Of a DNA stretch of 64,000 bases, positions 1,631-63,829 are shown in pieces. Source of the DNA: Trichobilharzia szidati (Eukaryota > Platyhelminthes > Trematoda > Strigeidida > Schistosomatidae); contig OX235277.1 of NCBI GenBank assembly GCA_944472155.2, positions 19,602,804 to 19,666,803 on the forward strand, written 5' to 3'. The notes beneath the pieces are model-generated. The model ran no database searches, was not told the DNA's origin, and worked only from the letters and a program-made list of their open reading frames with translations. A program made the position numbers and the translations under genes. Numbering within the stretch: the stretch's first letter is position 1; every line of letters begins with the position of its first letter.

Positions 1631-1656
1631 ATTGGTCATGTTCAGCATATTTAAGA
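1631..1656 (+). promoter_or_regulatory. putative core promoter of the micro-exon gene
   Basis: An ATTGG (inverted CCAAT) at 1631-1635 is followed by the TATA-like ATATTTAAG at 1647-1655, about 65 nt before the ATG at 1719. A start site roughly 25-30 nt after the TATA-like box would give a 5' UTR of about 40 nt. The motifs are visible; their use is inferred. Confidence 0.35.
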
Positions 1657-1718
1657 CTTTGCATAAATGATAGTGAAGATAGCTTGTACTCATATTTGTC
1701 GATTCGGATTAAACAGTT

Positions 1719-1785
1719 ATGAAAGTTATACTGAGCCTGCTTTTCTGCTTGTTCATCATGGTGATTCACATTGGAGGTAACTCAG
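1719..1785 (+). CDS. MEG exon 1: signal peptide
   Basis: ATG opens a 67-nt exon beginning MKVILSLLFCLF, followed by a hydrophobic stretch and a polar GGNS end, a typical secretory signal. It stops after one base of a Gly codon at CAG|GTAAGT, a perfect donor. Reading through the donor soon meets stops. The phase-1 end sets the frame used by all later micro-exons. Confidence 0.75.
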
Positions 1786-4700
1786 GTAAGTTCTGATGTT
1801 TTCGGGATTAACTTCTGATTGCATGAACAATTTTTTGTATAAATATTCATCTTAATACCTATATCTATTTCATGAATGAACCCATCGGTGGAAAGAATTC
1901 CCCTGTCACTGGTATTTACATGCAAGATTTTCGTATTATGGAAGGTCATGATGCAATACAATCACGATTTATGAATAACACATGAGTAAACTGGCAGAAA
2001 CACTTAAAAGTGCAGATTACAATAAATGTTATAAATGAAGTGCCAAGCTGGCGTGTTTAAGCATCAACTCTTGCTCAAAGTATAATGATATTTCAAATCC
2101 ACACAATATATTTCGTCGGAAAATTTAGACAATAATTTGAGTTTGTGTGCTTTAACATTTCAACCTCATCTAACATCAAGGGTGCTCATTAAGGGTTGAT
2201 CAGTCACAATTTAACTCAAATTCCTGTGTTATGGACGATGAATTGTGGTAAATGTGAAAGACACTGCGTTGCATCAATCGTCAACTAAACTTAACTTAGA
2301 TAAATTATGTTTTCAAAAGAATGGATACTGAAAAAAGAGTACTCTTTTCGATAACTCCATCATCAGGCTCTACATTTATATATACTTTATAGTGAATCAA
2401 TGAATTAGTGTTATGAACAAGATTAATTGTGTTTTCATTATTATCAGTATAATGGTCCCATAAGTGTGTTGGAAATACTATTTTAAGGTGTATTTCAATA
2501 AATTGGCTTAACAGTATTTTAGTGCGTTTCGGATTTTTCAGTAACGCCTTGTTCACTCCCACTATTGTTTCTCAAAGACCTGTTGTAGTATTTATATGAT
2601 TAATGTGACTAAGGCACATTGACTAATGGACATCATACTGTAAGCTATAAGAGCACATCGTGATTATAACATTAACATTTGATGGATACAAATATTTTTT
2701 ATAAACCTTTTACAGGAAATACAGAACAAGGTATTTTATGTTCTTTAATTTGCACTGAGAGTTTTGATTTGGTTGAAGCGAAATAAACTGAATTTTTATT
2801 TTTTTATGGATCATTTCTAAGAAACTGCTTAACGAATTACTTCTACTGGAAGTGTTCCTAATTTTTGTCTGAGGCAGTGTCATTTCCGCTATGAAAATGA
2901 TCTATTCACTCTAAATGGGAAGAGTTAGTTCACTAATTTCAAAATCTTCAAGTATTTAAACATATTTCATTCATTCTCACTCATTACAGCAATACAAATC
3001 TTAGACTTTCTTCAAGCCATTATTCGCAGTGAAAGAGAGAAACATTTCTGACCATTTCTCGCTACGAAATTTTTCTTAATTCTTCATGTTTTTTATATGT
3101 CTTCATCATAAAAGCTGATTTCATCTTGATGACATTATAAGAGAAGTATCTGCATGATGGGTTAAACATTAGTCAATAATGCCTAAAGAACTTCGTAGTT
3201 CCACTAGATCTCCTGTCTCATTTCCATAAACAAAATTGAATGACATTCCGAATGCGTCTTCACAGTTTGAAGTACTTTTAATAAATACAGTTTCCTACAC
3301 AGCGTAGTGTGAAAAGAATATGGTGAAACCGAAGTGTAGCTCCACAAAATACAAACAGGAATAATTCACTTTATTTTAAATGTTGTTTATTTTCTTCTAA
3401 AACAATATAATTAAAGTAATCACAATGATCTTATACTAGATGAGAAGAGTAAGTCCAGTGGTTTGAATATCTAGAGGTGTGTTAATGTATTTCATACTTT
3501 CTTACTCATTTTGGAAATGTAATTCTTAGTCTATCCTTAAGACATTATTAGAGAAGATAAGTAAAAACACACTATTGTCTACAACAATATATTCTATTTT
3601 TGAGGTTGTATTCACCTTAATCAACGCATCATAGAATTTCTACTTATCAACAGAATAGGCGACTTAGTAGTTTGGTGTTTTTTCATCAGTAGATAATGGA
3701 CATGGAGCATGACAGTTTTGATAGATATTGTGTTCCTTTGTTGTAATCAGATGTAAAGGCATTCAGGTGGTGTCTTTCTACTTTACAGCAATCACATTAA
3801 GTGAAGCTGCCTACATTACATTGTGTGGAGGAAAATAACTAGGGATCCTTTAAATGCAGAAACTTAGATAAGTGCAGTATTAAATTTTGAATAAAATTAC
3901 GAAGCAGTCTACATATTAATTTATCGACCATGACATATATTCGAAGAATTCTGTCTGCGACCATAGTAGCAGTATAGCCTATAGCGAAATCACTTGCATT
4001 GTACTATAATTAATGTAAGGTCAAGGAGAACTGATCAAAATGAATGAGCGAAACGTTAACTAAATATATGACTCAACCGCCTGTGGATGCTGAAGGTGTT
4101 TTAAGTTAAATGTTAACGAAGACGCATCTGACGAAGTGAGTAGGCCATTCACGGTTTTTTATTTTCCACTGGTTGCACACACTCACTTTGTCGAAGTTAG
4201 TAGGTTGGCTACACAAAGCCGATTACCGCCAAACTTTATTCTCAGAATGTTCCAAATATTTTATTCTAGGTAAATAAGGCACCCATGACAATAGGCTTGA
4301 ACTCAACCACTCCTTTTATTGATGTTTTTATTTTCCTTCCATGCTGTCATTTAGTATTCTGTTTATTTTATATATTCGAGATATCTTTGCATTGGTTGAT
4401 GTATCATTCAGCATCTCATGATCGAAACCGTTAGCACTTATTCCGTATTTATTTAAACCACGTGTTAGTATTTGGATTTGCGGAATTTTATGTCTGTGTG
4501 TATACTACACTATTATCAATATTAGGGTGGTTCTAATTGTTTCACGTTGCATTTTGTCCCAATACATTTCTTACGCTAAAGTAGATAATAGTGGGACATA
4601 CTACTACTCAGGATGAGAGGCACGTTTAGATAATCTGGGCAACAGTGAGTGTATAGGTAGAATGTGCATATTAATAGCGATGGAGGGGGAAATATCTACC

Positions 4701-7700
4701 ATCAACTTGCGACTAGATAATTTAATAATAAGAGGTTAGAAAACCAAGACCACAATGCACACCTGGATCACAGTATAATATTGATAATACAGTTGGCAAC
4801 ACAAATAAAATAAAATATGACAAGATAGTATTTACAGTTGTCCAGTGTTATCAGGAGAGATAACTATTTTGAGTTGGTGGCAAAGGCCAAAGTGCACACG
4901 GAAACTCAGCAGATAAACATCATCGCGACTGCTTCCTAATGCCTCAAACCCTTCAGTCAGTATTGTTTACATTAAATCATTTTTCATGCCACAAAAGCAA
5001 ATGCATTACAGTCTGAATGACCTGGCTAGATTACTGACATTTCAGTAAACCATTCAGAGAGTTCCCTCTCATTCCATTGTCTCTGACAGAGTCCTGGAAT
5101 TTCTGTGCAATTTCATTTCTTTGGCAACCTTGATGGCCTACTTAGCTTTGTAAAATGTACGAAAAATTCCATGTCATCATGCTTAGTTTTGTTTTCATCA
5201 AAAGAAGACATTTTCGATGATTGACTTCCTAAATGTTTCCAGCAGTCCATTTCATTCCGTTCCCATGATCAAGGTGAAAACATAATTTCGCTGTTTATAT
5301 TCCATATGTGCAATCAAGTTTCTTTTGTTATTCACCTGATTTTCTTAGGTAGATTTGATTTTTTTCACTCTCAAGCCTCTTTCTCTTCTCGGAGTTAAGG
5401 CTTCATTAACAGTAGTTAATATGGTAACACCAACTGGTTTGATAGTATTGAAATATGTATCAGTTGTTGTTTGAAGAAATTAGCTCATTTTCCAATACAT
5501 GGAACTGATTATTCGGTGTCTTACACCTGCGTTGAATCCACAAGGATATCAATGGTATTTTGCCGACTCAAGTCAGTGTCTGAGATAGTCTCACCGAGAA
5601 GTGATTTTATTGTTAGTTTATATCAGTGAAATTGGTATTGGAAACAGCATCAACATGGCCCTTAAGGTAATGTCAACTAGTTACCAGGTGAATTAATTAT
5701 GACTGAAACATAGCTACTTCAAATAGAGCCAGAAAAATTCATTTTAGTGAAAATGATCCTTATTTTTCATCAAAATTGAATAACTTGAGTATTGAAAATG
5801 ATATTCCCATACTGGATGAGGAAAGTAAGTGTACAGTCCCATAAATACGGAAGTTTATAGGCATATCTCATCATTTATCACACGTTATGGAAAAGTGACT
5901 CTCAGTCTTCCCTTGAAGCGTATTTTGCAGACAAAGATACATATTTATCAACATTATTCACTGACAGATATTTAACTTTACAAACAAAGATAACACAATG
6001 TCCATGAGTTGTTGTGGTGCCATTTCAACACAGACAAACACTTTCTCCATTTGGAAACATTCTTTGGTTTATGACGAAAGCTCTCAACCTACCTGTGTTT
6101 TTCACAATGGGTTCACTAATTCTGTGATCAAGTGTATACTGACATGATAGATGTAGCCCTGTTTCATAAATTTAAATCTGGCGTCCGCTGTCCATATTTA
6201 CTGATTAATCCTTTTGTGATGTACTTTTGTTTGAATTTATGAGGAAGGTATAAATGTGACTTATTAGCAATAGTTAGGCATTGGGCTGAGGGTGATAAAT
6301 ATATGTTCGCTAAGGGTTGGAAGGGCCATTTTCTCGAATTCATTTTACGAATGTTAATCACACACTGACTGATGGTCAGTAAATCGAATCAGTTTTCAGG
6401 GAATCCTATCTTTGAAGTCGTCTAAATGAACTGTTTTGATGCTGAAATTTGATAATCTGTCTTATCCATGGACTCTTATCACAAGTGGAATTTGTTTTAC
6501 TATATGCATGACGAGGAAACGATGTAACACTTCAGTAGTTGTTTATTTGACAAAACACCAATTGATAGTGTTGTAAGGCATCAAATACGACAATTTCCGG
6601 AATCGCCGTCAATCATATTACGAGATTTCTGACAGTTTTCTGGTGACAAAATTTCTAATTTTTCATTGAATACTTAACCAATATAGTAAAATGAATAGGC
6701 TTCCATGGTGAATTCAGTGGCGTTTAATGTTTGCAACACGAAGTGAATAAAAGTTTACAGTGACCGCCAAACAAGTATCTTTCTTGCAAATTTTCCTGTG
6801 GAATGAAAATAGACTTTGTATTAAAAATAATAATTAATGATTTGCTTAAATCTAAAACACCACTGATGTCAGAGTGTTGAATTTTCAGCATTTCGTACAA
6901 TATTGCTTCTAGTTTTAACGAATAACATTGAAAACAGTTATACAGATCACATCATGGGTTGTTAACTGCGGTACTAATACTGATTATGTTGGTAAGGATT
7001 TCATTTGTACATCCGAATGTACATGTTTCGCACATCCAAGAAACACTGAATCATATGTTCAGTCACTTAAGCACTGTAAACATTTCTACTACAGATTCGA
7101 AATAATATTAAGAAACATATTTGAGCTGCTCATGGATAATTCATTTGTCATCACAAAGTCGAAATTCGTATTTAATTTCGGGTCTGGATGGGTAATACTT
7201 CTAAAAGATGAAATGATCGAAAGTGAATGTGATGATGTCACAGTGTCTGTCTATTGAGATTTATTTACATAGACTCAATATTCCCACTATGGGGTTATTG
7301 ATGAATAATATCTGTACACGATGATCATTTCAACGTAACAACAATAACAGTAGTTGCTTCATTCCGAGTGGTGTTTATATTCTCTACAGAATTTTCATCG
7401 GAAATTACTGAATAATAGTTTCGTTTTGTCGAGCATCTTCGAGTGAAATAGTAGATAGTAGATGTAAAACCGTGAATTTAGGAAGGAAATAACGATGTAT
7501 TCTGTAGCGCTATGAAGTAAACGCAATTATTATTTTTAGATTCGATACTAGTAATTTCGTACATACAATTTTATTTTCATACCGACAAATTGTAGTTTGT
7601 GAAGGTTAGCATGACAATCAGTTCTGAATTTATATTTTAATCGTATACTGATTTTCAAATGTTGGTCTCAGTATGAATCTATACGATCCATGGAAAAGTC

Positions 7701-10700
7701 AGCTTTAAGTAGCCACAGTTATAAATTCGCTGTGTATCACCAGAATCGAGGACTTGTTCGTGAAATCATCTTCTGTCTAACGTTTCAGTGAAACAATGCC
7801 CTGAATTGTGATGTGCAGTCACTTTTTGGTGTATCCATTCCAGAGAATTTCGTAATACAGCCTATTCTGCATACCTGTTGCCTATATTCAGCTGCTCACA
7901 TTGAAATTATATGCAAGACAGAATGAAGATAAATACGCCCAAACCATGTCACAGAAAGCCACGACAACGTGAAATACACCAGAGTAAAATTCAGATAAAT
8001 TCAGAATCATGAATTAGAGGATGCCCCTCCCTCCTTTGATGTATAAAGCGTAATGTAACTCAATGAAACACTTTGTGTTTACGCAGAAGCAGTAGGTAAG
8101 TTGAAATGGAGACAGTGTGACAGAAAATCCTTTCACAGTTTCATTAACATGGTCATTCCACCCGTGATTACGCAGACCTAATGGCTTTGGGATAAAGAAT
8201 CCTGGAAACCCATACAGAGTTATGCTATTACCAGTATCATATTCGATTCATCTATCATAGCAGATAATACCTTTAATGTATCCACTTAACATCCTTTGAA
8301 CGGCACTCTTCAATTTCTTATTCACTCATGAATTCGTCAATGGATCAAAACTCATTTGGATTTCATTATTATTAGTAAATCATCGGAGAATTAAATAGTC
8401 TGTGGAATGATCAAACATATCTTCAGCAACAAAGAAAATTTGTGACTTAATCGAACGACCTCTTTGTTTTCACTGCCTTCTGCGCTTTCATATCATATTC
8501 ATTCGAGGGGTATATTTACCATTGATTTCATTTATTCAATGGGTATAGCTAATCCAATTGGTCAATTAAAGCACATGTTGAGTAACACTTAATATCAGAA
8601 ACATGGGATCAGTCTTAATCGCAGAATTACATTGTACATGAAAAAATGAAAAACTATGTGCAAACCTCAAATGTTGAGGTGCCTGTGGCTAAAATCTACG
8701 AAATGCACAGTTACTTTGCGTCAATATGGAAAAACAAAATGAACAACATTCGACGGACAAGGGTAAAGAGTCAATCACATTTGAAGTAGTAATGTGGTGA
8801 GTGCTACTTATAATCCGATATAAGTAGTATAACAGAAACGAAGTAACAATATGTTTGGCACACTGGAAAGAGCAATCAAAGAAGAGAACCATGAGAAGAA
8901 TGTTGCCATATGATGCAGAATCCAAGAAGCTATCGAATGAGACGATATTCGACCAATTCGTCAAGGATGTGGTAAATGATGTGCAAATGGCCGGTTGAGA
9001 ATATGGTATACCAAATTTAGATATGTACTATAAGTTTTACCAAACAAACATTCATTCCAGCCTCCTCAGTCTTGTCTTCTCTACATTTTGAAACGTATGG
9101 TAGATAGCTAAATTTGGTATACCATATTCTCAACCGGCCATTTGCACATCATTTACCACATCCTTGACGAATTGGTCGAATATCGTCTCATTCGATAGCT
9201 TCTTGGATTCTGCATCATATGGCAACATTCTTCTCATGGTTCTCTTCTTTGATTGCTCTTTCCAGTGTGCCAAACATATTGTTACTTCGTTTCTGTTATA
9301 CTACTTATATCGGATTATAAGTAGCACTCACCACAGTAATAGTATAAGTAAGCAGACTTAACACAGATTTTATTCACATATGGACATGAATATTAGCTGC
9401 TAAGTGGAAACTCAGTAGAAACTGGAAAATGCAGATGAAAAGTGGAACTTTTTGAAAATCTATTTTATCCTCAAGTATTCGAGAGAAATGAGAATGACAT
9501 TAAGTCTCAAAGAAAATTTTGATGGTCTCCTGTCTGCCACTTGGATTTAACCTTCAGCACAAAGAATACTCTTCATATGTGATAATGTTTCAGTGGCAAT
9601 ACGTCCTGTCTCAATTCGGTACAACTCGTTACTTATACCAATCAACTCACTAGTCAAGTGTTACTTGAAAGTATCGCCGACATAAATATTTTTTAATATT
9701 CAGACCACCAAACTTTACCTGACACATGGTTTGTGCACGGAGGCCATGATTATTTTCAGATGTCCCTTTCAAATCTTATATTAATACTCTTATTTTTAGA
9801 TACCATTAGTAAGGAGGATTGTGAAATAAAATGTCCATTTCAAATTCCATTCATAAACACAGTGAAATGTATTTAATATATGAGAAATTTTCTTTTTTAC
9901 TTATTTGTGCCCCAATGTTGCTGAAAATTTAGTGGCTCTTCGAAGCTATTCTCTGCAACGAAATTAGAGGAACAGAAATGAAACTAAGAAGTTACACCAA
10001 TCATATCTTATGAAATTCATAGTATGAGAATAATTGTAAGGTTGAAAATTGAAATTTTCGATATATAAATAAGATCAGATTTGCAGCATAAAATAATATC
10101 ATTCTATTTCATATGTTCTCACGGTTCTAAAAGTTTTTTAGAACCTATTCAAGCCGACATTGTTTTCAAAAATCTCAAACAGACGTGACTAAGTGACGCC
10201 ATCAATGCAATCACATACTATCGTCGACATATCGACGATATGTTTGTTGTTTGTAAGGACATGAGTGAGGTATCCGTATTATTTAACTGCCTTAACGAGA
10301 TCCATCCAAACATTTTATTCACCATGGAATATGAAAACAACGACGAGTTCATTTTCCCGGACTTAAGAAAAAAAGAAGAAAAAGAAACGATGGACCTACA
10401 AAAGAAACCAGGACCGGACAATACCTTCACTACAAAATCGTCTGCCCTATAATCTGTACGCGGAGATTAGTAACGACATTATACAAGAGAGCTAGGAAGC
10501 TTTGTTCACCGAATAACTTGAAGGGAGAATTGCGTTTCATTTAGAAATGGCTAGGAGAAAATGGATACCGAAATGGATTCACACAAAAGTATAGCAGAGA
10601 AAAAGATGAGAAATAAAAACATTTAGCTGTAGAAAAGAAAATAGTTTCTATTTGACTTTCATTCGAAGGAGATGCAGAGGCAGAATTACTGACAAAAGAA

Positions 10701-46700: not shown

Positions 46701-49700
46701 TTAGAAATTTTCGAAGTGTACAATTCATTATATGATGTCGATGAATGACGAATAATTGCAAGAAAATGAAGCTCGTGCGCAATACAACTCCACAGAATAT
46801 GCTCACCTGTTACGTTTTTTATGTACAATATATGGTAAAAAATTTTGTTAGAATAAAGTTAAACGTACTACTTGACATATGTCTGACATCTTTTAAGTTT
46901 CATATCAAGCGTTTTCTTAGTTCAACTTATATATATATATCGAACTAAACTTTCGATGATGGACACGGTTTACCTGATTCCAATTGAATGCAGTCTCAAA
47001 ATGCATGAATCTCCATATCTGCCTTTATTAATTGCTGTTGCAGTAATTCTTAGCAAGTGAATTCCCTTATTCAGTATGCAAGGGAGGTTTATATCCGGTG
47101 GTGGCTTTTCAAGCAGTTTTGTTTTTTAAATAAATTTTCATTTCAGTATATTGTAGTTGATCAATTAGGTTAAAGGATATCTTCAAGTTGGTTATCAAAT
47201 CACAAAAATGATTGTCATTATGAAAATTAGTGATGGACACACCTTGTATTCATTGAACAGTTGTGTTAGTTTGGTTGCAGGCAGGTGCTAGGAAGGTGAC
47301 TGCTCATAAGTCTTTCCAAGAATTTCATCTACAAATCAAAGAAGATGAACAAAAGAACGAAAATAAAGGAACCTTATTTCTCTTATAAAATATTCAGATG
47401 ATTCTTATTAGATTGGTATATACGCATATACGCAAACAACAACCAGCACCATGTCAACACCGACGCTATTTCAAGTATGAAGAAATTGTTGTGTCTTTGA
47501 CTTACCAAGCGAGGCAGCGTTTACGCCAAGAAAGTCCGGAATGACTATCTGAAAGCCGAGATTTGAATACAAATCGTTCAAAAATCTGAATTTGGTATGC
47601 AGACCTACACACGTGGAAGGAAACAAACGCTGAATATTTACCATCGACATCGAATCACCACTTCCTATTTGAGTCATCAATAACAGCATTCCCAATAGCT
47701 GGTGATCAACTTCATCCAAATATGCTCTCGATCAACAGTGAAGATGAGAAGGCAGTCCAGAAACGGTAGTTAGCAAAGAAACCTACCATCTAACGAAAGA
47801 AGAACCTACCTCTGAACAAATACTCACAGCAAAATGGAATAACTTTGGTTCATGCCTAGAAGACAATTGAATAATATCAAACGTGACACCTTCACATGGC
47901 AACAGATTCTGAAATGATGAGTAAAGTGTCTAGATTTGATGTTGAAGATACCAAATGATATGGAAACAAGAAAATACGGGTTAATGAAGAACCAGCTTTA
48001 AATGACTGCAGACCAATGAGTGCGATGGAGGACTGGTGCTGAGGCCCTTTTTTCCACTCGGAATTCAAAAGAGAAATAAAAATAACATCCGCATGTAAAA
48101 TTATTGTCAATATTACTAGGGCTATATATTCTATTGGGCCATATGAAGTTATTTTCACCATCCTGTTGACACTGAAAAGTTGTTGTATGCTCCTTGATGT
48201 GTATGCTAATTCTTACATTTTGAAACCTGTTTGTGACTCTCACTCAACTGTTTGCATTTTCAAATGTATCTCTTGTTTTCAGAAGGATTATGTAAGTATA
48301 ATATTTCTGTGTTATAATGATAAGCATTAACTTCACATTAAAATGTAATGTCGACAGCACAACATGTATCAGTATGGGAAAGATATACTAATATTTGAGC
48401 ATGAAACACATTGGAGTACAAATATTCCTAAACTATTAATCCATAGACTATTGTCCTCAATAATTGAGCCATCAAGAATTATGTTTCTCCTCCCATAGGG
48501 GCTCAGTAAAGTTTAAAACTGAACAGTATATACATTAGGTTACTGGATATTTATTAAATAAATGACCATCTAGTTAGAGTGTAATATTTTGATGATTTTG
48601 GAGGAGAAACATACGCTAATATAAATATTATTCCCGTTTAAAGACAGCACAAGAAATATTGGATTTATAATCAGTGCACTTCTATTAAATGCACTGTTGT
48701 TTATCACTCGGGTGCCCAGGGTTTCACCACTTATCGATTAGTCATCTATGAAATTATTCATGCATTTATTCTGTGTGAAAAACATTCATCATCGTCTTCT
48801 TTGTTATTCTGAACGTGATTCTTGACGGTTTTTATTGATATGTTATGTCACTTAAGTGAAGGAATGTAAGTCTGCATACCGTCTTACGACGGAGAATCTA
48901 CTGTTTGCCCCACAATCTCTCAGATTTGTAAATAACATTGTTTAATATGATAACGAATATCTTTGTGATGTAAGTGATTCGAGAATAACGCAGAATGAAA
49001 TAGTGTTAACACCAATGATCAATACTTTTTCATGGTGAGGTGTACTCACCTTAATTCGCCTAATTTTTAAAATCCGATTATTACCGGCCTCAAAAATATA
49101 CGTTATCATTTAAGTTAAGGAGAGTAAGTGAATTTTAAAGTTTCTGAATTTGAATTTCTTGGATAGCTGCTTAATTTCTCTGGTTCGTATGTAACATCAA
49201 TTGGTATACTCAACAGAGTTCTCTCAGTTCCGCTTATAGAATCAAGTCTAAGAATATCGTATTTGCTACTGAAGTGAGGTCGAAATCCTCTATAACAATA
49301 ACCTACGCTTTCCACGTTTCATATTATCAATAGTGCCCTATCTTATTTGTAGTCAAGGAGCCAACGTCAACGAGTGAGTGAAGAGTCAGATAGTTTCATT
49401 GATACGCCTACTTTCAGTTTTCACATTTACTTTATTTAGAGAAACCAAACATCATCTCCAATATTTTCGTTTGAGCACCACGAATTCTTTTAAAAAATGT
49501 GCTAACATTGAAAAGACTCAAAATTAGGTGATACCATGAAACGTGACACATGAACTTAGGTTAGTATTTGCAGTAGTAGATGTCTAATCGCAGTGCAATA
49601 AGTTTTTATAACAACTGAGTTGAGTCATTCAGCCAATAAAACAATCAAGACCTTGTTAGATGAGGTCACGAAATGGTAAAGAGCACTCGCCAATGTCAAA

Positions 49701-52700
49701 AACGGTGAATTGATGGCTCCGCAAAACGATGAATGACAACCTCTGAATTCAAACTCCAGTTTACCTTTTTATACAAGAGCAACAATTGTGTTTTCAATTT
49801 AGACAGTGAGCAAATTTATGTACCTAATTCTGGAATTAATGAAACAGCCGAGATATCGTCAAGCTTATTGATGAGATGTCAGTGATCAAATATCGAATGT
49901 GTGGACCATCGAACGATTATTTTCCGATTAAAGCCGCATCTGAATAGATGCAGTACACACAAGTGAGTGTGTGTAGAACCACACTTTCCAATACAGTATG
50001 AAGAATGTATTTTGTAAATCAAAAATTGCATGAAGCCACAGATTCAGTGAAACCGGATTTATTCATCTGCAACAATACGTCTAAGAAGGACATTGCTCTT
50101 GCATTAAGTGTGTCCACATGCACATCATTGGATGTAAAAACAAAGTATTCACACTGTCACCCGTCATCTTTCGAAGGTCACACTATGAAAGTTTTGCATT
50201 CCTATTCTGATTACATTTAATGGTGGTTTAGAAAATCATCGCTTAATTTATATGTTATGTGAAATTCCCATTGTAACATATAGAAAACCAAAACAAGTGA
50301 TTCAGTGAAGAGACTCTTTTCAACGAATTTATCATCAAGCTGTACAATCGTATATATATGGGTTTTTAAGAAGTTATATCCGGTGAAGGAAGTGAATCAT
50401 AGATGTGAATGCATAAAATAATAATAATAGTGTGAAATGCAGTTAAAACTAAAATGTTTGTGATTATAATCATCGATAAATGTCAAGTGGCCATACAATT
50501 AATGTCATATATAGAATGATTCATTGGATGGATAGAACTTGAAAAGGGTGTGCAATTATAGGATTAGTAGACAGATCGAATCAAATAAAAGCGTTTCGTA
50601 ATATTGTGTGAAATTTGACAGATTAGAATTTTATTGTAGTTGTTAATTGCATGAGTGTTTCATCATGTCATCAACCACTGGACTGAATACTCTTCATCAG
50701 AACGCCCGGATTCGAACCAGACCTTCTGGTTACAAGGCGAGCTCGTAGACCATTGAGCCACTGACGATCCAGTGTTTGAATTCTAATTTCTGCCAGTATC
50801 CAGATTAGAATTTAACGATGTAGAAAAGAATTGATTTAGAATAACAAGTAGAACAAGTGACATAATACTGGGGACAGTTCAATGTATGTATGGGCCACAT
50901 TAAAATGGAACACCAACAAGTCGCCTACACAATCTGCACATGATTGAGATATATTTTGATAGTAATTTGTAGTAAGCTTGGAATAAATCTGAACTAAACT
51001 TAATAAAAAACAAACAGGAGTCAGAAATGAAACTAAAAATGCCTCATTGATTTCCTGAGTATTGCAAATATTTCGCAAGTGATGCTTCCAATCAATCATT
51101 CTTGTGATCTTGTTTAGAATAACCCTTGTTCTGCTTCAGTTATGCAACACTAACTAACACACACTTTTCTACTCCCAGCATATTATACTTCTCAATATAA
51201 ATTGTGGATTGTATAGCGTACATATTTATGCAAACGTCATGATTAAGATTATGTCACAATAAGTTCACCTGATGAAATCGAGTGAAATTTAGCCAGTACT
51301 GAGAAATCGGGACAATTGAATCACTTGTAGTATACTGCATTATATATTACATCAGTGTTTGAACGCACTACGTGAACACTGGGATGTTAAAATCGCTGCG
51401 CATCACTGTTATCACGAATTTCTTGGTGTCTACTTAGTCGATAAAGCTCAAGTAACTAGTGAAATCAGTGGGTCAATGATAGTGAACTACACCTTTTCTC
51501 CCTCTCATGACACCAATTTCTCAAGGCATTGTTGACATCCAACGGTATAAGCTCTAAGAACCAGTAATCACTGGATTTTACGTTTGAAAACTGACAAAAC
51601 TCTGGCACCTGGCAAATTTGCATTTGATTAATCTGAGTCAGTTCAGTCATCGTCTGCTGATATCATTAAATCACTTTTATCATCATGGAAAAGCCAAGCT
51701 TTAAACAAATGCAAAAATATACATTTAAGCTATTGAATATATGAATGTACGTCAGAAATCACAACAGATGTCTGAAATTCAAACAACGTTTGTCTACATT
51801 ATGAGCATTTCATGGTGAAGGTAATTCACATCATCAGTTAATAGTTCATTTTTATGGCACCCTTTGAGAAACACAGAAAGAGAAATAATGGAAAAGAAAT
51901 GACATGGCAGGCATTAACACTTTCCATGCAAAAAAATTCTCTCCACATATTCAGAGCAATTCTTATCTGGCTCCACACATTACTTTTCCAAATTCCAGGT
52001 ATCATTACACTACCCAATGGGAAACGTAAGTCTAACATAAAGATATATATCATTTACTGAAGCCATGATATCAATCTCCCTAGACAATAACATTTAAGGA
52101 AATTGAATTCGACTTCAATATCATAGTTAATAATGTGTAGATAATTATTGCACATCATAGTAATACAAGATTTCATATTAATTCCCTATTGTATATATAA
52201 CAGAAGTAAATAATACTACACAGTGCATGATATCGTTTCATTGTGTGATACATTCACTGAGCAAATTATTGTACATTTGCATCTAAGCCTAATACATGAA
52301 ATGAAGTAAAGTAACCTCAAGATAATATAAAAACGAAAAGTATCCAAACAACCACATAAACGTTCTCATGCATGTTTGGTGTCAGTTATTATAAACAAGT
52401 ATTGCACAGGGAAATGATACCACGAAAATCCTATTACATAGTTCAAAATCTCAGATTAAAAGCTGCGATTCCAGTGTTAAAGTAATATTTACTAAATACA
52501 CATAATTTTATTGAAATAACTGATACAACTTAGTGTTCAATTTCCTTCTAGAATAAATAGTCCCTTCAAATACTCATATTTAACCTCAAATAGAATTTTA
52601 AGTAGCATATGTCCTCCCGTGTGTATTTCACTGCTCTAAAATCTAATGATAAATGTTCTAGGGTTAAGCCCTACTAATATAAAGAATCAAGCAGGACTAA

Positions 52701-53513
52701 AAGAGGAATCTGTGATCACACGTTTTTATAGACTGAAATGAATATCCATGTCAAATAGTATTCTTTTGTCTAATATACACTCATGAACTGATAATCTGCT
52801 CAGTAATAGTTTCGTTATTTCTAGAAATAACTTGTCGCAATGACCCCTGAATCAATTGATGCGGTAGGTTGTTTCGTCACATGGTTTGTGTTGTACACAC
52901 TAAACATTTACTTGACGAAGTGAATATCTATGAGTGATTTACAGTTTCGGTTATCCATGTTGGTAATACCTGTCACATTCATGTATCACTGTGTAACATA
53001 ATGCAGGGATGAAAACTGTTTGATTCTCCCTGACATTCTACAACAGATCCTGGATAATGTTTTGTCAAGTTGCGTGACATCTCCATCACTGTCTTCAACA
53101 AATATATGATAATATGCCAACAATGAAGTATCGAAACAGAAAGTTTTTTAAATGCATTCTTCTTCAACCATATGCACACGTATTATTGAATATCACGGCT
53201 TCTACTTTAATATACGATAAATTAATGCCTTTGTGTATCACAAGTAACGTTTCACAGTCACAGAGTTGTGATCAAGAGTCTGGGTAAACAATTAGTGACT
53301 TAATTATAAAAAGAGAAATTGGGGACAACAGTTCACTGGAGGATAATTTGAGTTATTGTAATGCAAAATGAATAACGAGAAACATAAGTCTATTTACCAC
53401 GTGAAATTCTCACATTCATTTTTGTATTACTATGGTTACAACTGTTTGCACTCCTCCCTAAAAATATTCTGATTTGTCTTTTAGGTCACGGGAAGGACGC
53501 TTTCTCACAATAA
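1719..53513 (+). CDS. micro-exon gene (MEG-like), secreted protein; join of about 32 exons
   Basis: Proposed split gene encoding a secreted protein of about 150 residues. Exon 1 encodes a signal peptide and ends in phase 1. About 30 internal micro-exons follow, all multiples of 3 nt, and a terminal exon supplies the stop at 53511-53513. Core exons start at 1719, 2716, 3440, 8087, 9800, 11793, 12774, 15466, 21335, 23693, 23866, 25086, 26629, 27434, 28527, 30224, 32284, 33752, 36631, 38989, 39797, 40327, 42470, 43462, 44122, 45134, 46683, 48283, 48857, 49115, 51999 and 53485; lengths sum to 453 nt. Joined in order they stay open throughout. Schistosome MEGs are known for runs of symmetric micro-exons, secretion and alternative exon skipping; the family assignment rests on that architecture, not on similarity to a named MEG. 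Several exons may be skipped or inactive, and more than one gene could be involved. Confidence 0.7.
2716..2730 (+). CDS. MEG micro-exon, 15 nt
   Basis: Acceptor after a T-rich tract (CCTTTTACAG) and donor AAG|GTATTT, weaker than most here. In phase 1 it reads GNTEQ when joined to exon 1. Confidence 0.45.
2915..2923 (+). pseudogene. decayed 9-nt micro-exon copy
   Basis: ATGGGAAGA followed by GTTAGT sits in a context like the live exon at 3440 (ATGAGAAGA|GTAAGT), and downstream intron sequence is also similar. The acceptor reads AA instead of AG and the donor is weakened, so it is probably dead. Confidence 0.4.
3440..3448 (+). CDS. MEG micro-exon, 9 nt (DEK)
   Basis: AG|ATGAGAAGA|GTAAGT. It reads D-E-K in phase 1. 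Flanking intron resembles that of 25086 and 5816. Confidence 0.6.
4630..4644 (+). CDS. possible MEG micro-exon, 15 nt
   Basis: AG|15 nt|GTGAGT, open in phase 1 (DNLGN), but the pyrimidine tract is weak. Not in the core model; could be chance or an optional exon. Confidence 0.25.
5816..5824 (+). pseudogene. 9-nt micro-exon copy with lost acceptor
   Basis: ATGAGGAAA|GTAAGT keeps a perfect donor, but the acceptor dinucleotide is GG. Its paralogues 3440 and 25086 have AG at that place. The next upstream AG would give a 35-nt exon that breaks the frame, so it is probably skipped. Confidence 0.5.
8087..8095 (+). CDS. MEG micro-exon, 9 nt
   Basis: TTTACGCAG|AAGCAGTAG|GTAAGT. It reads K/E-A-V depending on the preceding exon. 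Its paralogue is the exon at 26629, with similar flanks. Confidence 0.6.
   Translation, partial: KQ
8794..9334. repeat. perfect 227-bp inverted repeat, 87-bp spacer
   Basis: Arms 8794-9020 and 9108-9334 are exact reverse complements by manual alignment, both 227 bp. A transcript would fold into a long uninterrupted hairpin. The left arm on + and the right arm on - share an open stretch of about 57 codons rich in K, R, D and E, with part reading KKRTMRRMLPYDAESKK, not recognised. The outer flanks do not match. It lies in the intron between micro-exons 8087 and 9800. Confidence 0.9.
9800..9808 (+). CDS. MEG micro-exon, 9 nt (DTI)
   Basis: Strong T-tract (CTTATTTTTAG) before ATACCATTA and donor GTAAGG. 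Open in phase 1. Confidence 0.5.
10200..11045 (+). mobile_element. Penelope-like retroelement remnant (RT end plus GIY-YIG)
   Basis: An open stretch beginning near 10219 reads YRRHIDDMFVVCKD, matching the YVDD-type catalytic motif of Penelope-like reverse transcriptases, and continues with FNCLNEIHPNILFTMEYENN. Later frames give LVTTLYKRARKLCSP, the usual linker, then EYIGRTEISASIRFSEHIP, the GIY-YIG endonuclease signature, and HIVDTGHFV..FAEAIH near the end. Several frameshifts and stops show that it is dead; the N-terminal RT is missing. It is an insertion in a MEG intron. Confidence 0.75.
11680..11960 (+). repeat. tandem micro-exon unit, copy 1
   Basis: Resembles 12660-12900, about 980 bp downstream. 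Both have an ATAC(G/A)TT..AAAA start, a 9-nt exon followed by GTRAGTC, and then a GC(T)T-rich stretch (TTTAGCTTCAT versus TTTTGCTTCCT) leading into TTCCATTGAA / TTCTTTGAA. Confidence 0.5.
11793..11801 (+). CDS. MEG micro-exon, 9 nt
   Basis: CACTTTAG|TCAGACAGA|GTAAGT. Open in phase 1 (I/V-R-Q). Paralogue of the exon at 12774. Confidence 0.55.
12169..12575. mobile_element. foldback / MITE-like element
   Basis: Imperfect inverted arms of about 90-100 bp (about 12169-12262 and 12472-12575) share TCACAC(A/G)GCTTCACAAT at the outside and GTTGTTTGTTG.. further in; the centre is about 210 bp of AT-rich DNA with no coding. Terminal inverted repeats without a gene fit a non-autonomous DNA element. It lies exactly between the tandem units at 11793 and 12774. 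Confidence 0.55.
12660..12900 (+). repeat. tandem micro-exon unit, copy 2
   Basis: Diverged copy of 11680-11960; see that entry for the shared pattern. It carries the micro-exon at 12774. Confidence 0.5.
12774..12782 (+). CDS. MEG micro-exon, 9 nt
   Basis: CCATTTCAG|TAAAAGAAA|GTGAGT. Open in phase 1 (I/V-K-E). The peptide resembles the exons at 48857 and 49115. Confidence 0.6.
13978..13983 (+). CDS. possible MEG micro-exon, 6 nt
   Basis: TTTATTTCACACAG|AGCGAA|GTAAGT has good splice signals, but a 6-nt match is easier to get by chance. Not in the core model. Confidence 0.3.
14330..15315 (-). repeat. unrecognised coding-like repeat family, copy A
   Basis: Minus-strand coding-like sequence, most intact of three copies. 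The open part at 14890-15309 (139 codons) includes QGSDGSLVENHCEHYIILL, then LNVIGTVDYSRIDCATLHIF. A second open part at 14323-14604 includes SRWAFSWVTIHLPYFADRG. Between them another conserved stretch reads LLEAVDFIGESPL..RKSLQMM with stops. I do not recognise a domain. Amino-acid-level conservation among the copies suggests it was once protein-coding, a gene family or a transposon protein; the frames are now broken. Confidence 0.5.
15466..15474 (+). CDS. MEG micro-exon, 9 nt
   Basis: GTATTTTGAAG|AGTCTGAGG|GTGAGT. T-rich tract upstream, open in phase 1 (K/E-S-E). Lies just after the minus-strand repeat copy A. Confidence 0.4.
15587..15601. repeat. short (TAA)n repeat
   Basis: Five TAA units. 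Confidence 0.9.
15708..15748. repeat. 13-bp perfect hairpin
   Basis: CATATTTCGGTGA (15708-15720) and TCACCGAAATATG (15736-15748) are exact inverse copies around a 15-nt loop. No function inferred. Confidence 0.8.
16360..18150 (-). repeat. coding-like repeat family, copy B, split by an insertion
   Basis: The two parts 16360-16818 and 17618-18150 align in order with copy A (14330-15315). The second part keeps NRLNVIGTVD-like and FENAQ-like stretches with several stops. About 800 bp carrying Penelope-like RT remains interrupts it at a point where copy A is continuous. Confidence 0.6.
16819..17617 (+). mobile_element. Penelope-like RT remnant inserted in repeat copy B
   Basis: The + strand gives EIGLPISQIMADIF (the G..SP..ADI RT motif), then WWTYVDDTFNTLKSE (catalytic YVDD), then GLHTPIYRKPTYSNPES (usual Penelope-like RT region), broken by stops and frameshifts. 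Possible imperfect flanking duplication of about 20 bp: TGTACTTTCTTATCCCCACT at 16799-16818 and TGTATACTCAGTCATTCTCACT-like sequence at 17618-17639. No endonuclease region seen. Confidence 0.7.
18965..19580 (-). repeat. coding-like repeat family, copy C (truncated)
   Basis: Aligns with copy A from its start until about 19580, then diverges. Open minus-strand parts: 19286-19516 (includes SFEAVDFIGDSPPRQKTKIR) and 19032-19262 (includes SSGSPFAYHILLRVYF). The part corresponding to 14890-15309 of copy A is missing. Confidence 0.55.
20200..20800 (+). repeat. intron segment similar to about 3600-3830
   Basis: 20640-20740 resembles 3670-3775: both have TGGTGT..AGATAATG/AGATGATG..GACATG/AACATG..CAGTTTTG..AGATATTG..GTTCC, then a (C)AG..GTGTCTTT tail. 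Further sign of intron-block duplication inside the MEG. Confidence 0.4.
21335..21343 (+). CDS. MEG micro-exon, 9 nt (GVE)
   Basis: Long pyrimidine-rich lead (TTTCCGTTGGTTTTCTGTTGG) then AAG|GAGTTGAGC|GTATGT. Open in phase 1. Confidence 0.5.
21735..21960 (-). repeat. coding-like repeat family, diverged copy D
   Basis: Minus-strand frame reads YLQQGSYSNLQKNHRNLYN followed by ILSQDRDIYIGMITRIRKN, aligning residue by residue with QGSDGSLVENHCEHY..ILSFNRLNVIGTVDYSRID of copy A (shared QGS, NH, ILS, R, IG, R, A, IF). Much more diverged than copies A-C, so probably older or a separate paralogue. Confidence 0.5.
23693..23725 (+). CDS. MEG micro-exon, 33 nt, cysteine-rich
   Basis: CCCTTCATGTTCCATATAG acceptor and TTTAG|GTAAGC donor. 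Phase-1 reading is (H/D)KSEICCLCSL with three cysteines, the only internal cysteines in the proposed protein. A competing AG 28 nt in would give 5 nt and break the frame. Confidence 0.4.
   Translation, partial: TRVRFVACAV
23866..23871 (+). CDS. MEG micro-exon, 6 nt (EQ)
   Basis: One of the best acceptors in the window (TTTGTTTTTCTTTTCCTTTTTAG), then AACAAT and GTAAGT. Two codons. Confidence 0.6.
25086..25094 (+). CDS. MEG micro-exon, 9 nt
   Basis: TTTTCATCTTAG|ATGAAAGGC|GTAAGT. D/Y-E-R in phase 1; paralogue of the exons at 3440, 5816 and probably 38989. Confidence 0.7.
26173..26181 (+). CDS. possible MEG micro-exon, 9 nt
   Basis: CTGATTTCAG|TGTGTGAAT|GTGAGC. Open in phase 1 (V-C-E). Donor slightly off consensus; not in the core model. 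Confidence 0.3.
26629..26637 (+). CDS. MEG micro-exon, 9 nt
   Basis: GTGTTTTGCAG|CAGCGCTAA|GTAAGT. Phase-1 reading P/A-A-L; the TAA is out of frame. Paralogue of the exon at 8087. Confidence 0.6.
   Translation, partial: QR
27434..27442 (+). CDS. MEG micro-exon, 9 nt
   Basis: CACGTTTAG|AAGGTTTGG|GTAAGG. K/E-G-L; the exon at 48283 (AAGGATTAT) reads the same. Confidence 0.45.
28136..28177. repeat. (AT)n / (ATATGT)n microsatellite
   Basis: About 42 bp of AT dinucleotides with three interspersed TG steps. Confidence 0.95.
28527..28583 (+). CDS. MEG exon, 57 nt, with N-glycosylation sequon
   Basis: GTCATTTCAG acceptor, 57 nt, then GTAAGT. Phase-1 reading GASSNMTSLYPFLNHIEDK has no stop and contains N-M-T, a sequon. 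A later AG at 28576-28577 would give a 6-nt exon (ATAAAC) in the same frame, so short and long forms could both exist. Confidence 0.5.
30224..30232 (+). CDS. MEG micro-exon, 9 nt
   Basis: TTGATTAAATCAG|AAGATAAAG|GTATGT. Q/E-D-K. Confidence 0.5.
31188..31211 (+). CDS. possible MEG micro-exon, 24 nt
   Basis: AAAG|24 nt|GTAAGT, open in phase 1 (VMWRLINS), but the pyrimidine tract is poor. Not in the core model. Confidence 0.2.
32284..32292 (+). CDS. MEG micro-exon, 9 nt (GRL)
   Basis: TTTTTCATATTTTTGTATTTTAG, then GAAGACTGT, then GTGAGT. Strong acceptor. Confidence 0.65.
33619..33636. repeat. (AT)n microsatellite
   Basis: Eighteen bases of alternating AT. Confidence 0.9.
33752..33757 (+). CDS. 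MEG micro-exon, 6 nt
   Basis: ATATTCTTTTTTAATAG|ATCCAA|GTGAGT. Y/D-P. Confidence 0.5.
36631..36639 (+). CDS. MEG micro-exon, 9 nt (x-D-F)
   Basis: TTGATTTTTGTTCCATTTAG, then GGGATTTTT, then GTAAGT. Encodes the same D-F as the exon at 43462. Confidence 0.65.
36732..36900 (+). CDS. possible alternative signal-peptide exon
   Basis: ATG starts MKCFKFMIRLMIFALLLDQL, a basic N-terminus then a hydrophobic core, signal-peptide-like, with CC next. The frame stays open to CGGA|GTAAGA at 36901; using that donor the exon is 169 nt and ends in phase 1, the phase of every downstream micro-exon. It could be an alternative first exon for the 3' half of the locus, or a chance open frame. No clear TATA box seen. 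Confidence 0.25.
37667..38176. mobile_element. MITE-like element with terminal inverted repeats
   Basis: Left end TCAACGAAGAGTCTCTTT (from 37668) and right end AAAGAGACTCTTCGTTGA (to 38176) are inverse copies, and similarity continues inward (GGAAAATTCAGTCAC versus GTGAATGAATTCGCC). About 510 bp, AT-rich, no coding. A similar AGAGACTCTTTTCAACGAA stretch occurs once more near 50308. Confidence 0.6.
38989..38997 (+). CDS. MEG micro-exon, 9 nt
   Basis: TCATATTTTCTTATTTAG, then TGGATAGAC, then GTGAGT. V/L-D-R. Upstream intron resembles that of 25086. Confidence 0.65.
39797..39805 (+). CDS. MEG micro-exon, 9 nt
   Basis: CACATTAAG|ATTTGGGTC|GTAAGT. Perfect donor but weak pyrimidine tract. Confidence 0.35.
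40327..40335 (+). CDS. MEG micro-exon, 9 nt
   Basis: TTACCACATTCCAG|TTAGGAGTG|GTGAGT. L/V-R-S. Confidence 0.55.
42380..42800 (+). repeat. tandem micro-exon unit, copy 1 (of 3)
   Basis: Aligns with 43390-43790: shared CATTCTCTTT..CATTTCACTAAT, a 9-nt exon with GTATGT, TTGTAGCAC, AAATAACTA, GACATATCTCTGA and TTTTTTAAATCAGCTT-like stretches in the same order. Part also aligns with 46800-46920. Confidence 0.7.
42470..42478 (+). CDS. MEG micro-exon, 9 nt (EYR)
   Basis: TCTCTTCGTTAATGCAG|AATATAGAA|GTATGT. Same position in its unit as the exon at 43462. Confidence 0.6.
43390..43790 (+). repeat. tandem micro-exon unit, copy 2 (of 3)
   Basis: Diverged copy of 42380-42800, about 1 kb downstream; carries the exon at 43462. 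Confidence 0.7.
43462..43470 (+). CDS. MEG micro-exon, 9 nt (x-D-F)
   Basis: TTGCTTCACTAATCCAG|GAGACTTTG|GTATGT. Encodes R/G-D-F. Confidence 0.6.
44122..44130 (+). CDS. MEG micro-exon, 9 nt (GDM)
   Basis: TATTGTATCATTCAG|GCGACATGA|GTAAGT. The in-line TGA is out of frame in phase 1. Confidence 0.6.
   Translation, partial: AT
45134..45142 (+). CDS. MEG micro-exon, 9 nt (x-E-E)
   Basis: ACTTCTTTTAATCCAG|GTGAAGAAG|GTGAGT. Confidence 0.6.
46620..46950 (+). repeat. micro-exon unit, copy 3 (of 3)
   Basis: 46870-46925 (GACATATGTCTGACATCTTTT..CATATCAAGCGTTTTCTTAG) matches the ends of the units at 42380 and 43390. Its small exon is at 46683. Followed by an (AT)n stretch at 46928-46940. Confidence 0.55.
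46683..46688 (+). CDS. MEG micro-exon, 6 nt (DL)
   Basis: CTTTGTTTTGCATCAAATGCGCAG, then ATCTGA, then GTATGT. Sits where its sister units have 9-nt exons, so one codon was lost or gained. Confidence 0.5.
   Translation: M
47506..47604 (-). CDS. orphan exon resembling dienelactone hydrolase / carboxymethylenebutenolidase
   Basis: On the minus strand, TTTCCTTCCACGTGTGTAG precedes a 99-nt open exon that ends at CTTG|GTAAGT. It reads GLHTKFRF, then LNDLYSNLGFQIVIPDFLG, then VNAASLG. The pattern 'R..aD.l...Gy...vPDf..G' is typical of the dienelactone hydrolase family (alpha/beta hydrolases). Both ends are phase 1. I could not find neighbouring exons, and the catalytic Cys, Asp and His would lie in other exons. 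It may be part of a gene on the opposite strand within the MEG, or a stray copy of an exon. Confidence 0.4.
48283..48291 (+). CDS. MEG micro-exon, 9 nt (x-G-L)
   Basis: GTATCTCTTGTTTTCAG|AAGGATTAT|GTAAGT, near-ideal splice sites. Same peptide as the exon at 27434. Confidence 0.7.
48857..48865 (+). CDS. MEG micro-exon, 9 nt (x-K-E)
   Basis: TTATGTCACTTAAG|TGAAGGAAT|GTAAGT. Same K-E as 12774 and 49115. Acceptor AAG is less usual. Confidence 0.5.
49115..49123 (+). CDS. MEG micro-exon, 9 nt (x-K-E)
   Basis: GTTATCATTTAAG|TTAAGGAGA|GTAAGT. Only about 250 bp after the similar exon at 48857, so one may be a copy of the other. Confidence 0.5.
50699..50770 (-). repeat. tRNA-derived sequence (SINE head or tRNA pseudogene)
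   Basis: On the minus strand an A box TGGCTCAATGG (50750-50760) and a perfect B box GGTTCGAATCC (50708-50718) are spaced as in a tRNA. A T-arm with wobble pairs can form, but no good 7-bp acceptor stem is present, so it is not a functional tRNA. Confidence 0.6.
51999..52025 (+). CDS. MEG exon, 27 nt
   Basis: TTACTTTTCCAAATTCCAG, then 27 nt, then GTAAGT. Reads x-IITLPNGK, no stop. Joins in frame to the terminal exon at 53485. Confidence 0.65.
53485..53513 (+). CDS. MEG terminal exon with stop
   Basis: CTGATTTGTCTTTTAG is a strong acceptor. Joined in phase 1 to the 27-nt exon, it reads RHGKDAFSQ and stops at TAA (53511-53513). The coding part is 29 nt, restoring the frame of the whole model. 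The 3' UTR would run to about 53700. Confidence 0.55.
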
Positions 53514-53676
53514 AATTACCACTAAATTTTTCACAAACTCAAGTGATAATTGATCTACACTGACATTTTCTGGTTCATTAAATGTGTGAATCTTGCGTTT
53601 TCCGCTCATACTAGAATTTCTGTCTAAATTCTCTTTATAAATTTTTAATTTGTTTGTGTTAATAATGTCATAACGA

Positions 53677-53682
53677 AATAAA
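53677..53682 (+). terminator. polyadenylation signal AATAAA
   Basis: Canonical AATAAA about 165 nt after the proposed stop codon. A further AATAAA lies at 53509-53514 but overlaps the stop. Confidence 0.4.
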
Positions 53683-53699
53683 TGCGAATTATTTTAACA

Positions 53700-54700
53700 A
53701 ACAAATGTGTATTTTTTATCATGGATTTGGACATCCAATAAATCTCTCACATTAAAGCTGGCTGTTATTGTGAAATCAGTTATCAATTAATAACTTTCCC
53801 TCAGACGAAACGAAAAGCGACAATGTGAAATAAATCTCACTGATGAATTAGTTTTCACAGACTTTAATAACTGAAATTGAAATAATAGCAGTGATTGATG
53901 GTTGAGGGTTGAAAGGAAACGCATTGAATTCATTGGAAAATAGCAGAATTTTACTTCATTCAAGAGGGAACGAACATTTACTCACTTGTTGTTGTAGACG
54001 GAATGTTGATGCTGCTTGTTTCCTGGAAAATCCTTTTGAAATTGGAAATTTTAGTCTCTTTCCGCCGGCTACTAGTCAATACAATGTTTATATATTTTAG
54101 TGTACTTTGCAACCATCAGTGGGGCTTTAAATTATTTTTTCTTCTATGAGGACTATAGCTTTCTTATTGAGGCCTTATTCTGTTAAGCCAACTCTAAGTT
54201 GATTCACGTATGTAGTTGGATACCAGTGGAAACAATTAGTGATGCTAACTAGCCAGGACAAAGTGACCTATGAACTGTACGGCCATTTCGCTCACTTGGA
54301 TCCAAGAGCATTACTACTGCTCATCTGAGGGGGCTGAAACACTTCAAACAGCCTGAATACTGGCAGGTCAAACTATGCCTTTGATGTTTATTGCCAAGTG
54401 ATTTGCAAACTGAGGTCTGAATACATCAGAAGTATTTCTTAAAAAGTATAAATGCAAAGTTAGGAATGAATATTTATGACACCAGTATTCTGTGAAGAAG
54501 AATTCGTCCATAATATTTCAGTTGGCAGTTTAAATAAGTGAACTGAATCTTTTCATTCTGAGTTCCACTTTGTAACTATACTAAATTTTGCGAACCTCTA
54601 TTTGCGATTTACAAGATTGGAATAATGTCGACTACAGTCACTCAGTTGATGGTCAGTCTCATACTAGGCATTTAAGTTGCAGTATATGACATGCATGACA
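53700..54700. other. intergenic, nothing supported
   Basis: No gene seen. One 9-nt AG/GTATGT match at 54199-54207 lies beyond the proposed gene end and is treated as chance. Confidence 0.4.
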
Positions 54701-54706
54701 AATTTT

Positions 54707-59930: not shown

Positions 59931-59935
59931 ACATA

Positions 59936-60131: not shown

Positions 60132-60149
60132 GCTAGACACTATTCTGCT

Positions 60150-63820: not shown

Positions 63821-63829
63821 TTTGACTGC

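Follow-up and report, generated by a model that had tools for sequence, protein, structure and literature searches.

A predicted plus-strand gene with about thirty tiny, mostly 9-nt internal exons in Trichobilharzia szidati

The schistosomatid Trichobilharzia szidati very probably carries a single micro-exon gene (MEG) of the schistosome type, a gene class of parasitic flatworms, in a stretch of 64,000 nucleotides (nt) of contig OX235277.1 (assembly GCA_944472155.2, positions 19,602,804 to 19,666,803), here called the window. The predicted gene would occupy about 1.65–53.7 kb of the plus strand. It appears to be an extreme case of a known, poorly understood type of parasite gene, with about 30 tiny exons that are mostly 9 nt long. 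This reading relies on an excess of 9-nt splice-site pairs, on the charged composition of the peptide that they would encode and on duplications within the gene; the helical period of the joined product is not among its foundations. A preliminary description of this DNA had proposed a plus-strand gene of 52 kb in which some 30 internal exons, mostly of 9 nt, lie between a signal-peptide exon and a terminal exon with the stop codon. The excess of 9-nt pairs over controls, together with the reading of the two end exons, bears this layout out.

Splice-site pairs

Acceptor–donor pairs enclosing n nucleotides (AG-n-GT) were scored with a generic splice-site matrix in the region 1650–53750. At a score of at least 12, the plus strand holds 17 pairs enclosing 9 nt and none enclosing 8 or 10 nt. 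The minus strand of the same region has a single 9-nt pair, and 60 dinucleotide shuffles gave a mean of 1.17 and a maximum of 6. Each of the 24 lengths between 4 and 38 nt that are not multiples of three yielded at most 4 plus-strand pairs at this score. When the threshold is raised to 15 and lengths of 6–39 nt are taken together, the classes 3n, 3n+1 and 3n+2 are represented 14:0:0 on the plus strand and 2:2:3 on the minus strand. Neither strand of the flank 53750–64000 contains a 9-nt pair scoring at least 12.

The reading frame is set by exon 1, which ends in phase 1. Among 27 nine-nt candidates scoring at least 9, 26 are open in this phase, compared with 21 in phase 0 and 17 in phase 2. 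A second matrix was trained on 19 of the exons and applied in leave-one-out (LOO) fashion, each exon being scored without itself. At an LOO score of at least 10, it recovers 22 nine-nt pairs on the plus strand, 21 of them open in phase 1, along with no 8-nt pair, three 10-nt pairs and two 9-nt pairs on the minus strand.

Six of the 9-nt exons start with AAG or CAG (8087, 26629, 27434, 30224, 31745 and 48283). These starts could provide a second acceptor and thus 6-nt alternatives; they may equally reflect Glu or Lys codons.

The working chain of exons

The candidates were joined into a working chain of 31 predicted exons: the signal-peptide exon, 29 internal exons and the stop exon. Twenty-one of the internal exons entered by rule, as 9-nt pairs with an open frame and an LOO score of at least 10, and the other eight by homology or by hand. 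Two of these eight, 7596 and 11793, are 9-nt exons retained for homology; those of other lengths (2716, 13978, 23866, 28578, 33752 and 51999) were picked by hand before any joined translation had been seen. In the list below, positions are those of the window, all features lie on the plus strand, "score" refers to the generic matrix, and bracketed capitals are the encoded residues.

1648..1654, plus: TATTTAA box, 71 bases upstream of the ATG; putative function
1719..1785, plus: exon 1, coding part; ATG at 1719; signal-peptide-like MKVILSLLFCLFIMVIHIGGNS plus one base; phase 1 end, followed by gtaagt
2716..2730, plus: 15-nt internal exon (GNTEQ); score 17.7, LOO only 7.3
3440..3448, plus: 9-nt exon (DEK); score 10.2, LOO 12.0; related to 25086
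7596..7604, plus: 9-nt exon (ICE); weak, score 9.0, LOO 1.9; retained as the collinear homologue of 26173 (BLAST E 0.39 for this piece alone)
8087..8095, plus: 9-nt exon (EAV); score 18.0; homologous to 26629
9800..9808, plus: 9-nt exon (DTI); score 13.2; matches 27434 through a neighbouring hit (E 0.003) and alignment
11793..11801, plus: 9-nt exon (IRQ); score 9.4, weak acceptor; homologous to 12774 (E 1.45e-6)
12774..12782, plus: 9-nt exon (IKE); score 10.9, LOO 13.8
13978..13983, plus: 6-nt exon; score 13.6, LOO 14.6
15466..15474, plus: 9-nt exon; score 17.6
23866..23871, plus: 6-nt exon; score 20.9
25086..25094, plus: 9-nt exon (YER); score 12.6; homologous to 5816 (E 7.5e-4)
26173..26181, plus: 9-nt exon (LCE); located through homology to 7596; LOO 11.1
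26629..26637, plus: 9-nt exon (SAL); score 16.2; homologous to 8087 (E 2e-4)
27434..27442, plus: 9-nt exon (KGL); score 11.3; matches 9800
28578..28583, plus: 6-nt exon; score 10.6, LOO 13.0
30224..30232, plus: 9-nt exon; score 15.0
31745..31753, plus: 9-nt exon; score 11.9, LOO 13.4
32284..32292, plus: 9-nt exon; score 16.4
33204..33212, plus: 9-nt exon; score 10.3, LOO 11.5
33752..33757, plus: 6-nt exon; score 15.9, LOO 7.0
36631..36639, plus: 9-nt exon; score 14.9
38989..38997, plus: 9-nt exon; score 14.6
40327..40335, plus: 9-nt exon; score 14.2
42470..42478, plus: 9-nt exon (EYR); score 13.4; homologous to 43462 (E 6e-24)
43462..43470, plus: 9-nt exon (RDF); score 15.5; homologous to 42470
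44122..44130, plus: 9-nt exon; score 13.5
45134..45142, plus: 9-nt exon; score 20.7
48283..48291, plus: 9-nt exon; score 16.1
51999..52025, plus: 27-nt exon; score 17.4, LOO 16.6
53485..53513, plus: last exon, coding part (HGKDAFSQ); stop TAA at 53511–53513; acceptor ag at 53483–53484
53677..53682, plus: AATAAA, probable poly(A) signal

The signal peptide of exon 1 was judged by eye. At the 3' end, AATAAA occurs at 53509, 53677 and 53737. From end to end, the working chain covers 51,795 bases, of which 369 including the stop codon (about 0.7%) would be coding, and predicts a product of 122 residues. Its introns range from 447 to 8391 bases, with a median of 1204.5. All 29 internal exons are in phase 1; their sizes lie between 6 and 27 nt, and 23 measure exactly 9 nt.

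Candidates of comparable quality were omitted from the working chain, namely 29606 (12 nt, LOO 14.9), 45649 (21 nt, LOO 14.3) and 23693 (33 nt, generic score 15.2, LOO 10.4). Thirteen exons are treated as optional (3789, 14529, 18271, 21335, 22125, 29606, 39274, 45649, 45731, 46683, 49353, 49954 and 50963), so that at least 13 candidates are undecided. Two of them, 14529 and 21335, had belonged to earlier joined sets and to the 25-exon set used for composition; they were made optional after the translation had been seen, the former for its weak sites and the latter for its low generic score of 9.2 (LOO 10.5). Candidates at 13620 (9 nt), 47281 (15 nt), 14991 (21 nt), 42787 and 52825 were dropped for an in-frame stop. 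Those at 35379, 40701 and 44788, and many lower-scoring ones, stand outside all chains.

An earlier chain, consisting of the working chain and two further 9-nt exons, had 31 internal exons and 387 nt. With all 13 optional exons, the chain has 42 internal exons and encodes 171 residues without an inner stop. Neither the 122-residue nor the 171-residue product contains Trp. The preliminary description had given an open joined frame of 453 nt. Its count of some 30 mainly 9-nt internal exons holds, but this frame was not exactly reproduced; its length falls between those of the working chain (369 nt) and the full optional set (171 residues).

The exons at 51999 and 53485 together place a Gly-Lys-Arg run immediately before the final eight residues of the predicted C-terminus, which we take to resemble a peptide-processing site.

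Composition and helical period

The interior codons of 25 nine-nt exons specify Asp, Glu, Lys or Arg in 54% of cases, compared with 20% in each of two decoy sets (149 plus-strand and 133 minus-strand AG-9-GT pieces of any splice score, hence not score-matched); none of 20000 draws from either set reached this value. Charge composition had played no part in the picking of exons. In the 78-residue core of the working chain, 53% of residues are charged, the mean of 2000 decoy chains being 18.5% and their maximum 30.5%; all decoy chains were likewise assembled from AG-9-GT pieces without score matching. A chain restricted to the 21 nine-nt exons chosen by score and open frame is likewise highly charged (56%; decoy maximum 34%), and the charge signal is therefore robust to the manner of exon choice.

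For the core, the mean hydrophobic moment is 0.495 (100 degrees, window of 18 residues), with a spectral peak at 90–100 degrees. This moment was reached by none of 5000 residue shuffles (maximum 0.470) and none of 2000 decoy chains (maximum 0.413). The earlier chain gave 0.46, which none of 2000 shuffles reached, and its moment fell when the sequence was permuted in blocks of three residues (P 0.002 at window 18; 0/2000 at window 11). The demotion of 14529 and 21335 lifted the moment from 0.46 to 0.495. When the optional exons are added singly, 12 of the 13 lower it (0.399 to 0.491), and 45649 raises it to 0.506. The helical period is thus supported, but it depends on the exon list, and its weight was lowered after the rule-only chain had been examined (see below). 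Omission of real exons would break the helical register, as would an error in the exon list.

Intragenic duplications and fossil exons

Comparison of the gene with itself reveals old internal duplications. A block of four exon positions (5816, 7596, 8087, 9800) recurs in the same order at 25086, 26173, 26629 and 27434. This four-exon correspondence was assembled from short matches with E values from about 1e-11 to 0.4: 5816/25086 (7.5e-4) and 8087/26629 (2e-4) match directly, 7596/26173 reaches only 0.39, and 9800/27434 is carried by a neighbouring match (0.003) and by alignment. Position 5816 lacks the acceptor AG, which its intact copy at 3440 (E 4e-7) retains. Taken from the intact exons, the first set reads DEK-ICE-EAV-DTI and the second YER-LCE-SAL-KGL. 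Single units are duplicated as well, at 11793/12774 (IRQ, IKE; E 1.45e-6) and at 42470/43462 (EYR, RDF; E 6e-24). A third copy of the latter unit lies around 46683 (62% identity over 357 columns) and contains an optional exon.

2915..2923, plus: fossil of the 3440 exon unit; acceptor AG missing
5816..5824, plus: fossil of the 3440/25086 exon unit; acceptor AG missing
46683..46688, plus: optional 6-nt exon in the third copy of the 42470/43462 unit; score 9.0

Fossil copies lacking the acceptor are found at 2915, 5816, 16497 and 19203. The duplicated units place AG-9-GT at matching positions. In the six intact pairs, donor positions +3 to +6 are retained in 22 of 24 cases, exon bases in 27 of 54 and ungapped flank bases in 86 of 156. 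The splice dinucleotides are retained in 24 of 24, partly by selection, as both AG and GT were needed for a pair to be counted. Faster evolution of the exons than of the introns was considered and rejected: gapped flanks suggest it (27/54 versus 446/649, P 0.006), whereas ungapped neighbours do not (86/156, P 0.53).

The region 14275–19600 holds partial copies of a repeat with 72–81% identity, lying inside long introns. The demoted candidate 14529 is situated within a repeat that has two other copies, both without the acceptor. The region also includes a 158-residue open stretch on the minus strand (14890–15366) without a Pfam match.

Alternative explanations

Several observations weigh against a single active gene with the proposed exons. 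The generic matrix was not trained on T. szidati. No 6-mer near 25 nine-nt exons was prominent as a shared intronic motif, the best reaching P of about 0.002 among many. The LOO scores of exons 7596 (1.9), 2716 (7.3) and 33752 (7.0) are low, and the introns 3449–7595 and 15475–23865 (8391 bases) could conceal further exons or an interruption of the gene. Of 18 sites at each codon position, the paired exons differ at 11 (first), 6 (second) and 10 (third); lacking a third-position excess, they give no indication that the peptide is under purifying selection. Finally, the rule-only chain has a moment of 0.39, which 66 of 5000 shuffles attain, as do 4 of 2000 decoy chains, and its period peak is broad (80–110 degrees). 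The sharpness of the period hinges on the 6-nt exons chosen by hand and on the homology-based 7596 and 11793, all of which had been picked before the period was examined.

The long intron bears on the possibility that the locus is shared by at least two shorter genes, or by one gene and a decayed part, with exons up to 15474 and from 23866 belonging, for instance, to different transcripts and some exons in disuse. The 8391-base gap in the working chain would suit such a split, and so would the repeats at 14.3–19.6 kb (72–81% identity), which carry exon copies without acceptors. However, a single frame and phase run throughout, and the four-exon block of 5816–9808 recurs across the gap at 25086–27442. 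No second signal-peptide exon or terminator was noticed in between, although there was no systematic scan for either. We regard a split locus as unlikely. Still less probable is a pseudogene, that is, a former micro-exon gene that has lost expression. The acceptor-less copies and the lack of a third-position excess of changes would be expected of it, but donors are conserved between duplicates, and the working chain is open from end to end, the latter being a circular argument as candidates with in-frame stops were dropped. It might also be objected that any AT-rich stretch of 52 kb yields AG-3n-GT pieces that can be joined, and weak candidates do occur at every length. Nevertheless, the 9-nt excess and the charge lie far beyond their controls, the charge even in the rule-only chain, and chance can hardly be entertained. 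A single micro-exon gene thus remains our preferred reading.

Relation to known micro-exon genes

The following comparisons concern excerpts of the cited papers. PMC7653826 defines MEGs operationally as having at least seven exons, with at least half of the exons shorter than 70 nt and divisible by three. The working chain has 31 predicted exons, and all 29 internal ones, which form one uninterrupted run, have this size and symmetry. Divisibility by three was a selection rule for internal exons; the excess of 3n lengths itself still exceeds the controls. A signal peptide encoded mostly by the 5' exon, a descriptive trait of MEGs, is found by eye in the translation of exon 1. The earlier proposal of a schistosome-type MEG, extreme in exon number and uniformity, thus gains support from symmetric phase-1 exons behind a signal-peptide exon and from this definition. 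Charged composition and duplicated exon blocks speak for it as well, and helical periodicity does so less firmly.

Schistosome MEGs share with the predicted gene a signal-peptide 5' exon, central short symmetric exons, long introns and a small secreted product (PMC10526429, PMC4671649, PMC4699917, PMC5825161). The 35 S. mansoni MEGs described in the PMC10526429 excerpt have 10 to 20 exons, mostly of 15 bp, introns of up to about 5 kb and proteins of at most 189 residues. By comparison, the gene predicted here has 29 internal exons, its commonest exon size is 9 nt rather than 15 bp, and one intron would measure 8.4 kb, unless exons were missed within it. A MEG-2 gene with 12 exons is described in PMC3499410. 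Group 2 venom allergen-like (VAL) genes reach 38 coding exons, and VAL-6 has a MEG-like portion (PMC4350168); exon number alone therefore has a precedent. SmVAL6 also combines very small symmetric exons with alternative splicing (PMC4350168, PMC7957364), but it is a VAL gene, whereas no SCP/TAPS domain was reported for the predicted product by the Pfam scan. MEG-12, MEG-26 and other MEGs with amphipathic helices resemble it in being small, secreted and predicted to be helical (PMC4671649, PMC5825161). As excerpted, these are short helical peptides with a hydrophobic face, in contrast to a 78-residue core that is 53% charged and written mostly in three-residue exons, and the protein searches found no sequence relation. 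Tapeworm MEGs (Hymenolepis, Echinococcus) fall under the same operational definition, but the N-terminal motif given for one family in the PMC7653826 excerpt differs, by eye, from that of the predicted product.

Protein searches with the joined product gave four candidates each and none at E ≤1 and E ≤10, respectively, in a database whose coverage of MEG proteins is unspecified and by a word-based method that misses distant relatives. Among 10 PDB matches at E ≤5, the best (0.0087) was to chain CSD20f3B. In the Pfam scan, five families appeared, each below its cut-off and none of them SCP/TAPS. The best, IL4 (E 0.013; 16.1 bits versus a cut-off of 23), was lost once the signal peptide had been omitted, and was attributed to chance. 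The consensus with Trp after the signal peptide that the PMC10526429 excerpt gives is absent from the predicted product. As no relative was matched and this consensus is absent, the gene was assigned to no named S. mansoni MEG family. The suggestion in the preliminary description that it has no nameable relative and may be undescribed holds as far as these protein searches reach. As 109 MEGs were counted in one S. mansoni release (PMC7653826), an existing annotation may already include this gene. No published mention of a MEG composed mainly of 9-nt exons was found in the literature searched, a weak negative since the founding paper (DeMarco 2010) was not covered. The start of the exon 1 peptide, searched as text, does not occur among the literature matches listed.

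Proposed mode of action and significance

From a TATA-type promoter, a pre-mRNA of about 52 kb would be transcribed. GT-AG splicing would link the signal-peptide exon to the stop exon through some 29, perhaps as many as about 40, symmetric micro-exons in phase 1, giving a small, secreted, highly charged and probably alpha-helical product of roughly 120–170 residues. We infer a role at the host interface. Because all internal exons are multiples of three in the same phase, any of them could be skipped without loss of the frame. MEGs produce protein variants by splicing of the exon-skipping type (PMC4699917, PMC4350168, as excerpted), and the predicted gene may do the same. Each three-residue skip would rotate the rest of the helix by about 60 degrees (3 × 100 = 300), so that isoforms would display different faces.

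The locus grew as units of an exon with its intron were duplicated within it, both one at a time and in a block of four exons, some of the copies then dying through acceptor loss. Duplication and shuffling of micro-exons have been suggested as a source of new MEGs (PMC5825161, as excerpted); here, single units and a four-exon block are visibly duplicated inside one gene. A bolder idea, which we put forward tentatively and consider rather doubtful, is that the three-residue exon is the working unit: amphipathic helices would be written in steps slightly smaller than a turn, skips would generate a large helical library by rotations of about 60 degrees, and units would be duplicated, or lost by acceptor decay, within one locus.

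If transcripts confirm the prediction, the gene would be one of the most fragmented protein-coding genes in the literature compared. It would then test how the spliceosome finds 9-nt exons dozens of times per transcript. The locus would also document how micro-exons arise, are duplicated in blocks and die, with a bearing on the origin of parasite gene families.

Other features of the window

An intron of the predicted gene contains a match to the hammerhead type I ribozyme (29110–29155, plus strand; 44.7 bits versus an Rfam gathering score of 34). Downstream of the gene, a 150-residue open stretch on the minus strand (55362–55814) has no Pfam match and two protein hits, both from Trichobilharzia regenti (75% identity over 35% of the query; 49% over 59%), one of which bears a precomputed PF08385 label. 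By its look, this stretch may be a remnant of a non-LTR (long terminal repeat) retrotransposon. The hammerhead match and the T. regenti hits fit a schistosomatid. Further downstream, two adjacent copies of about 200 bases lie at 60897–61637 (72% identity). Short inverted repeats pair 10071–10121 with 11329–11379 (51 bases, 86%) and 37667–37754 with 38093–38176 (88 bases, 76%).

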